Source: Candidatus Rokuibacteriota bacterium
Lineage (GTDB): Bacteria > Methylomirabilota > Methylomirabilia > Rokubacteriales > JACPHL01
Direction: 5' to 3'
Assembly: GCA_016188625.1 (NCBI GenBank)
Contig: JACPHL010000176.1
Location: 1 to 16,078, forward strand
Length of the DNA stretch: 16,078 bases
In this document: piece by piece, positions 9,580 to 14,184 of the stretch
Numbering within the stretch: position 1 is the first letter of the stretch
Layout of the letters: each line of letters opens with the position of its first letter
Program-made: the position numbers and the translations under genes
The notes under the pieces: model-generated
Databases searched by the model: none
Told to the model about the DNA's origin: nothing
What the model saw: only the letters and a program-made list of their open reading frames with translations

Positions 9580-10428
9580 GTGGTACGTTCGAGTCCTTCG
9601 GGCCCGCGCTCGCTCGTCCTCCGGGCCTCGGCGAAGGTCAACCTGGCCCTGGAGGTGCTGGGGAGACGCCCCGACGGCTACCACGAGATCGCGACCGTCC
9701 TTCAGGCCATCGACCTCTCCGACCGGCTCGTCCTGGAGGACGCCGACGGGGGGATCGAGCTCCGGTGCGACACCCCGGCGATCCCCACCGACCGGCAGAA
9801 CCTGGCCTGGCGGGCCGCCGACCTCCTCCGGCGGGCGGCGGGCGTGGCGCGCGGGGTCCGGATCCGCCTCTGGAAGCGGATCCCGGTGGCGGCCGGGCTC
9901 GGCGGGGGGTCGAGCGACGGGGCGGCGGTGCTCTACGGGTGCAATCGGTTGTGGCGGCTGGGATGGGACACGGCGCGGCTCGCGACCCTGGCCACGGAGC
10001 TGGGGATGGATGTCCCCTTCTTCCTCCGGGGGGGCCGGGCGCTGGCGACCGGCCGGGGTGAGATCCTCCGTCCCCTCCCGCCCGCGCCCGGTCTCACCCT
10101 GGTGATCGTCAACCCGGGGGTCCCCCTCCCCACCCGCGAGCGCCCTCGAGGGCGTGGTCGAACGGCGCTGCCCGGTCCTCGGCGAGCTCAAGGCGGCCCT
10201 CGCCAAGGCGGGCGCCCTCGGCTGCGTCATGTCCGGGAGCGGCCCGACCGTGGTCGGGGTCGCGGCGTCGGCGCGGCATGCCCGGGCGATCCGGGAGGCC
10301 CTCGGACCCTCGCCCTGGGCGAGTTGGGTGGTGCGGACGCTCCCGGGACGGGCGGTCGGGGCGCTCCGGGTCGCGCCGGAGTGGGCCGCCCTGGCGGACG
10401 CCGTGACTTGGGCGTGGCCAAGCGGTAA
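9580..10428 (+). pseudogene. ispE: 4-diphosphocytidyl-2-C-methyl-D-erythritol kinase, broken by frame change and internal deletion
   Basis: IspE phosphorylates CDP-methylerythritol in the MEP isoprenoid pathway. From GTG 9580, residues 1-185 are a normal GHMP kinase N-terminus: ASAKVNLALEV with K19, substrate loop RRPDGYHEI, phosphate loop PVAAGLGGGSSDGAA (102-116), and catalytic D146 in GMDVPFF. After IVNPGVPLPT (base 10134) the family match jumps to the +1 frame (about 10139-10406), which encodes ALEGVVERRCPVLGELKAAL and the C-terminal GHMP motif MSGSGPTVVG. E. coli and B. subtilis IspE have about 64-67 residues between these two motifs; here about 34 remain, so some 98-104 bases appear missing. 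The original frame runs as low-complexity text to 10428; the +1 frame stays open through the tRNA to 10534. IspE is usually essential in MEP-pathway organisms, so an assembly error is as likely as a real lesion. Confidence 0.85.
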
Positions 10429-10481
10429 GGCACGGGACTTTGGATCCCGGATCGGAGGTTCGAATCCTCCCGCCCCAACCA
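10408..10481 (+). tRNA. tRNA-Gln (anticodon UUG)
   Basis: A 74-base tRNA with encoded CCA (10479-10481). Acceptor TTGGGCG (10408-10414) pairs with CGCCCCA (10471-10477). The anticodon arm is CGGGA-CTTTGGA-TCCCG with anticodon TTG; the T arm is GGAGG-TTCGAAT-CCTCC. The weak first pair U1-A72 is typical of tRNA-Gln. Position 2 is U opposite C71, a mismatch where tRNA-Gln normally has G2-C71, an identity contact for glutaminyl-tRNA synthetase in E. coli. The 3' half lies in the tandem duplication, so it recurs 103 bases later. It sits between ispE and prs. Confidence 0.92.
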
Positions 10482-10652
10482 CGCCGCGGCCGGGCCCGCG
10501 CCCGAGCGAGGATGCACGATGCCCTACGAGCTGAAGCTCTTCACGGGGACCGGATCGGAGGTTCGAATCCTCCCGCCCCAACCACGCCGCGGCCGGGCCC
10601 GCGCCCGAGCGAGGATGCACGATGCCCTACGAGCTGAAGCTCTTCACGGGGA
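10447..10652 (+). repeat. Perfect 103-bp tandem duplication across tRNA-Gln 3' half and prs start
   Basis: Bases 10447-10549 and 10550-10652 are identical at every position. The unit begins in the 3' side of the tRNA anticodon stem, contains the variable loop, T arm and CCA end, the tRNA-prs spacer, and the first ten codons of prs up to CTCTTCACGGGGA. Bases outside the unit differ at once (C446 against A549; C550 against A653), so the boundaries are exact. 103 is not a multiple of three, so the first prs start codon leads into another frame. Confidence 0.97.
10550..10584 (+). pseudogene. Duplicated 3' half of tRNA-Gln
   Basis: This stretch repeats the anticodon-stem edge, variable loop, T arm, 3' acceptor strand and CCA of the tRNA (copy of 10447-10481). 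It lacks the 5' acceptor strand, D arm and anticodon, so it cannot form a tRNA alone. Its CCA end falls 37 bases before the functional prs ATG at 10622. Confidence 0.85.
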
Positions 10653-11560
10653 ACGCCAATCGGCCGCTGGCCCAGGAGATCGCCGACCACCTCGGGCTCG
10701 CCCTCGGCGAGGTCGAGGTCGGGCGCTTCTCCGACGGCGAGGTCTTCGTCCAGATCAACGAGAACGTCCGCGGCGCCGACGTCTTCATCGTCCAGCCGAC
10801 CTCGCCCCCGGTGAACGACAACCTCATGGAGCTCCTGGTCATGATCGACGCCTTCAAGCGGGCGTCGGCCCAGCGGATCACCACCGTCCTCCCCTACTAC
10901 GGCTACGCCCGGCAGGACCGGAAGGTCCAGCCCCGCGTCCCCATCACGGCCAAGCTGGTGGCGGACCTCCTGACCGCCGCCGGCACCCACCGGCTCCTGG
11001 CCCTCGACCTCCACGCCGGCCAGATCCAGGGCTTCTTCAACATCCCGGCCGACCACCTCTTCGCCGCCCCGGTCCTCATCGACTACATCGCCCGCCTGGA
11101 GCTCCAGGACCTCGTGCTGGTAGCCCCGGACGCCGGCGGCGTGGAGCGGGCCCGGGCGATCGCCAAGCGCCTCCGGGCGGGCCTGGCGATCATCGACAAG
11201 CGCCGGGAGGGGACCAACGTCTCGGTCTTCATGCACCTCATCGGCGACGTCCAGGGCAAGGACGCGGTGATCATCGACGACATCATCGACACCGCCGGCA
11301 CCCTCATGCAGGCGGTGGAGGCGCTCAAGCGGGAAGGGGCCCGGCGGATGTTCGCCTGCTGCGTCCACCCGGTCCTCTCCGGGCCGGCCCTGGCGCGGCT
11401 CGAGGCCTCCCCCCTCGAGGAAGTCGTCGTCACCAACTCCATCCTCCTCCCCAAGGAGAAGCAGCACCCCAAGATCACCGTCCTGTCGGTGGCCGCGCTC
11501 CTCGGGGCGGCGATCCGGCGCATCCACGCCGAGGAGTCGGTGAGCACCCTTTTCGTCTAG
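10622..11560 (+). CDS. prs: Ribose-phosphate pyrophosphokinase (PRPP synthetase)
   Basis: 312 residues, full length for class I enzymes (E. coli 315). It makes PRPP from ribose 5-phosphate and ATP for nucleotide, His and Trp synthesis. Visible motifs: [18 protein letters not shown] (34-51), ATP/flexible-loop YGYARQDRK (93-101), catalytic metal-site [11 protein letters not shown] (129-139), KRR (193-195), and the PRPP-binding loop [12 protein letters not shown] (217-228). The C-terminus is intact (SVSTLFV). The ATG at 10622 is the second of two identical starts made by the 103-bp duplication; the first (10519) goes out of frame after ten codons. GAGCGAGGA about six bases upstream is the likely ribosome binding site, and it too is duplicated. 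The next gene, rplY, starts 11 bases after the stop, so the two are probably co-transcribed. Confidence 0.97.
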
Positions 11561-11571
11561 AGGAGTCCCCC

Positions 11572-12225
11572 ATGGAAATCCGTGAGATGCACGTCGAACG
11601 ACGACAGGGGATCGGCAAGGGGCAGGCCAAGCGGCTCCGGCGGAGCGGGGTCGTCCCCGCCATCCTCTACGGGGCCCGGACCGAGCCCGTCCCCCTCGCC
11701 CTCGCCCCCCGCGAGCTCCAGCGCGTCCTCGGCGCCCACACCGGCGGCGGGGTGCTCGTGAGCCTGCGCTTCCCCGACGAGCAGGGGGAGACGAGGACCG
11801 CCATCATCCGGGACCTCCAGTACGACCCGGTGCGGGAGACCCTGCTCCACGTGGACCTGCAGGCCGTCTCCATGGACGAGGAGATCACCGTCGAGGTCTC
11901 CATCCACGTGGTGGGCGAGGCCGCCGGGGTCAAGGAGCAGAGCGGGATCCTCGCCCTGATCCAGCGGACGGTGGAGGTCTCCTGCCTCCCCGCCCTCATC
12001 CCCGAACGGCTCGACGTGGACGTCAGCCGGCTCCGGATCGGCGACGTCCTCACCGTCGCCGACCTCCGCCTCCCCGAGGGGGTCCGGACCCTCGCCGAGC
12101 CCACCCAGGCCCTGGTGACCGTCTCCCCGCCGATGGCCGAGGAGGTGGCGGCGCCCGCGGCCCCGGTCGCAGCCGAGCCGGAGGTGGTCACGGAGCGGAA
12201 GCCCGAGGCCGAGGAGGAGGAGTAG
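11572..12225 (+). CDS. rplY: Large ribosomal subunit protein bL25, long CTC form
   Basis: 217 residues from ATG 11572, with AGGAG six bases upstream. The N-terminal 95 residues are the 5S rRNA-binding bL25 domain: MEIREMHVERRQGIGKGQAK, then LRRSGVVPAILYGA, then IIRDLQYDPVRETLLHVDLQ. A TL5/CTC-type beta domain follows (ITVEVSIHVVGEAAGVKEQSGIL ... LPEGVRTLAEPTQALVTV). The last 30 residues are a low-complexity Ala/Pro tail ending in EAEEEE, common in long CTC-type proteins. E. coli bL25 is 94 residues and lacks the second domain; this is the longer form seen in most other phyla. It sits in the conserved prs-rplY-pth order. Because bL25 is encoded in the same frame as the first duplicated prs start, no in-frame stop separates 10519 from 12225. 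Confidence 0.95.
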   Translation: MEIREMHVERRQGIGKGQAKRLRRSGVVPAILYGARTEPVPLALAPRELQRVLGAHTGGGVLVSLRFPDEQGETRTAIIRDLQYDPVRETLLHVDLQAVSMDEEITVEVSIHVVGEAAGVKEQSGILALIQRTVEVSCLPALIPERLDVDVSRLRIGDVLTVADLRLPEGVRTLAEPTQALVTVSPPMAEEVAAPAAPVAAEPEVVTERKPEAEEEE

Positions 12226-14128: not shown

Positions 14129-14184
14129 GTGAACGTTTAACCACGGGAAGGGCGATCTGGGCGGCTTGAAGGGGGGAACGGTCG

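Follow-up and report, generated by a model that had tools for sequence, protein, structure and literature searches.

A 103-bp head-to-tail repeat across the tRNA-Gln/prs boundary of one draft genome: recent duplication or local error

Introduction

Short tandem duplications are a familiar class of mutation in bacteria, where they arise by slippage, template switching or end joining, and the products of slippage usually carry some microhomology at the join. For tandem duplication without homology in bacteria, we found nothing specific in the literature. The nearest technical counterpart is the local error in metagenome assemblies, of which examples lacking the support of any read are documented (PMC7111523). 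Here we analyze a 103-nt repeat at the boundary between tRNA-Gln and prs in a 16,078-nt stretch of DNA (the window) from a Candidatus Rokuibacteriota draft MAG of 344 contigs and 84% completeness. Rather than a biological system, the repeat looks like a one-off copying accident of an ordinary kind, or else a local error of sequencing or assembly confined to this draft.

Results

Structure of the duplication

The first-pass annotation described two identical 103-base units with sharp edges that duplicate half of a tRNA, a ribosome binding site and ten codons of prs. This proved right to the base, in content as in extent: 10447–10549 and 10550–10652 lie head to tail with 100% identity and 0 mismatches (2.0 copies), and each unit comprises tRNA-Gln from the 3' strand of the anticodon stem, a spacer with the ribosome binding site and ten prs codons.

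10447–10549, forward strand: copy 1 of the 103-nt unit, with the tRNA-Gln 3' part, spacer, ribosome binding site and prs codons 1–10; carries a decoy start at 10519
10550–10652, forward strand: copy 2 of the unit; its tRNA 3' part is an orphan, and after the spacer and ribosome binding site comes the true start of prs (10622)

At a shift of 103, the exact run is itself 103 bases long, and the flanking bases do not lengthen it; since run and period are equal, the join has 0 nt of microhomology. The sequence reads CTTCACGGGGA up to the junction between the copies and CCGGATCGG beyond it. Shuffled versions of the window gave longest exact repeats of only 13–15 nt at any shift from 12 to 2500, and with one copy of the unit removed the longest other exact repeat in the window is 19 nt, which excludes chance as the source of the repeat. 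Replication slippage between short repeats does not fit, as it expects microhomology at the join and 0 nt was found.

Effect on tRNA-Gln and prs

The duplication crosses a gene boundary, yet both genes are whole. The complete tRNA-Gln consists of its 5' half plus copy 1, and the complete prs begins in copy 2; the surplus consists of an orphaned tRNA 3' part and, after it, one more ribosome binding site and prs start.

10408–10481, forward strand: complete tRNA-Gln (TTG), CCA encoded; T2 and C71 of the acceptor are mismatched, and the variable loop has 4 nt
10622–11560, forward strand: intact prs for ribose-phosphate pyrophosphokinase (312 aa); the genome yielded no other copy
10519–12225, forward strand: mechanical open reading frame from the duplicated prs start, in the frame of a bL25-like gene (start 11572) and out of the frame of prs; not a gene

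Pfam matches are strong over both halves of the 312-aa prs product, whose best named match is to Candidatus Rokuibacteriota, and prs, pth and ychF downstream are all full open reading frames. Because 103 is 1 mod 3, the frame from the first start (10519) is not that of prs; that it stays open through prs into the frame of the bL25-like gene is attributable to chance in GC-rich DNA.

Distribution among relatives

The nearest of the genomes searched belong to the same order, the source being the only one of its family. In the relatives' loci that were read, prs directly follows tRNA-Gln, whose 3' part was single-copy in 22 of the 22 loci examined. A pattern search for a doubled T-arm/acceptor at a spacing of ~87–117 nt found it in the source genome alone (1/60) and in 0 of the 59 other genomes of the order. 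The single-copy layout of the relatives is therefore ancestral and the duplication private to this one assembly. The junction was not found in the viral contigs searched. As the copies are identical and the duplication occurs in none of the relatives, the earlier description of the event as very recent or artificial is borne out.

We also looked for exact tandem arrays elsewhere. In about 704 kb of readable source-genome sequence there was one other, an exact two-copy repeat of a 35-bp unit, again with no microhomology (contig L161, 6333–6402), and there were 0 in 379 kb of relatives and 0 in 518 kb of other loci. One such array is too few to show an excess in the source genome.

Neighboring anomalies in ispE and tRNA-Gln

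Upstream of the tRNA, the ispE reading frame is broken.

9580–10428, forward strand: ispE frame, undamaged through the N-terminal part of the GHMP kinase up to 10140; a 110-nt net deletion then shifts the frame, and the C-terminal part lies in another one from 10142

The stretch between two flanking motifs spans 37 codons (111 nt) in 15 of the 15 relatives measured, and the window keeps 1 base of it; the net loss is thus 110 nt, with the frame shifting at 10140/10141. This damaged ispE is the only one found in the source genome. In a survey of 36 regions comparable with relatives it was the sole frameshift site, so the damage looks local; the survey in the reverse direction mostly flagged one overlong open reading frame, at 14166. 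Separately, ispE is also frameshifted in one relative (genome G044, locus L014, about 700–1300), where the frame stops after GERLRPLPAT and the rest lies in another frame.

The tRNA-Gln is itself unusual. Its acceptor strands, TTGGGCG and CGCCCCA, leave a T2.C71 mismatch, with TGGGGCG (G2) in 28 of 28 relatives; its variable loop has 4 nt (GATC), as in some relatives, most having 5. The mismatch sits between the ispE junction and the duplication junction, which lie 409 bp apart and are both apparently blunt. Counting the duplication, the ispE gap and the mismatch, about 510 bp thus hold three anomalies, all located in core genes or beside them. Such clustering suggests locally unreliable sequence, and a local error competes seriously with a genuine recent mutation as the explanation.

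Assembly evidence

Among the contigs sampled from the genome, the ends of two pairs (L193/L145 and L200/L220) overlap by exactly 141 nt, and no overlaps of other lengths from 25 to 300 were found, which points to a de Bruijn assembly with k=141, probably MEGAHIT-like. From k=104 upward, every k-mer in the region occurs once, so an assembly at k=141 can spell exactly two copies unambiguously. An artefact by graph collapse or a shared k-mer, which needs the joined ends to share no fewer bases than the smallest k, was rejected, since they share 0 nt. Graph joins need shared k-mers, so the junction must have come either from reads or from an unsupported patch. The zero-overlap join argues against simple mis-assembly but does not count against chimeric fragments where coverage is thin. 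The mis-assembly hinted at by the first-pass annotation is accordingly possible in general, and falls away for the graph-collapse type.

Discussion

We favor a one-off, very recent 103-bp head-to-tail duplication, present in the sequenced DNA and without a function of its own, a reading that we hold with about even confidence on sequence evidence. The exact identity, the sharp edges, the completeness of both genes, the single-copy state of relatives and the assembly evidence count for it; the 110-nt ispE loss and the T2.C71 mismatch within about 510 bp count against it. What would be expected of a recent tandem duplication was found here, namely two identical adjacent direct copies and an ancestral single copy in relatives. 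Such a duplication could have formed during replication or repair, if a strand was joined to, or copied again from, a point 103 bp behind with no use of sequence homology. The break points lie within tRNA-Gln and within prs, which leaves one whole copy of each; with both genes whole, the duplication could persist as a nearly neutral mutation. The one predictable effect would come from the repeated ribosome binding site and out-of-frame start, 103 nt ahead of those of prs: Prs might be made at a slightly reduced rate. Since the duplication is absent from relatives, its copies are undiverged and RNA folding of the region gave no signal against shuffles (z −0.85), no function is indicated, and it is probably functionless.

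Of the two main readings, a genuine recent duplication has only a slight lead; an error introduced locally by the library or the assembly is nearly as likely. Such an error, to which we give a little less than an even chance, would stem from a library fragment that was chimeric or had jumped, or from a local assembly patch unsupported by reads where coverage was thin, and it might also account for the ispE gap and the tRNA mismatch. None of the three clustered anomalies is common to relatives, the broken ispE has no other copy in the genome, the draft is fragmented, and errors of this kind have precedent (PMC7111523). Against it stand the lack of microhomology, which excludes a plain graph collapse or a mis-join through shared k-mers, the need for a chimeric read to outcompete the correct reads, and the full open reading frames of prs, pth and ychF.

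A special case of the favored duplication is that one replication accident made both changes by successive template switches, a forward jump losing 110 nt of ispE and a backward jump recopying 103 nt across tRNA-Gln and prs. The earlier description had taken the closeness in size to the ispE loss as a hint of a common cause. The proximity of the junctions (409 bp), the similar sizes and the apparent absence of homology at both are in keeping with this. The sizes nevertheless differ (110 and 103 nt), as do the phases (2 and 1 mod 3), so the duplication neither compensates nor mirrors the ispE deletion, and similarity in size and proximity by itself are both weak arguments for a shared cause. 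The ancestral bases at the ispE break, moreover, are reconstructed from relatives. We consider successive template switches unlikely, and it is very improbable that a single such accident in a living lineage made both changes and left a lineage that still survives lacking a normal IspE and bearing a decoy prs start.

It is more improbable still that the duplicate was selected, with the upstream decoy start or the orphan tRNA 3' half in the prs leader regulating prs. The decoy has the same ribosome binding site as prs and lies out of its frame, which would suit such a role, but the duplicate is absent from all relatives, the copies show no drift or refinement, and the region folds no more stably than its shuffled versions. 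Although tRNA genes are common integration sites and the unit starts inside one, we give almost no credence to a remnant of mobile element integration at the tRNA 3' end (att duplication), because the copies abut with no element or integrase between direct repeats, the repeat runs on long after the tRNA ends and reaches into prs, and a single copy would remain after excision.

Before a check of the reads, this 0.5-kb stretch is no basis for claiming ispE loss, a variant tRNA-Gln or a remodeled prs leader. If real, the duplication is a neat case of one that spans a gene boundary and spares both genes.

Set beside the two closest described phenomena, the locus resembles each in part. Like short tandem duplication mutations in bacteria, it has two exact head-to-tail copies, is recent and occurs in one genome only; it differs from them in the absence of microhomology at the join and in being known from sequence rather than seen arising. 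Like local errors of metagenome assemblies (PMC7111523), it lies in a fragmented draft, with core genes hit and anomalies clustered in 0.5 kb; unlike those errors, it shows neither an N gap nor any overlap shared across the join.
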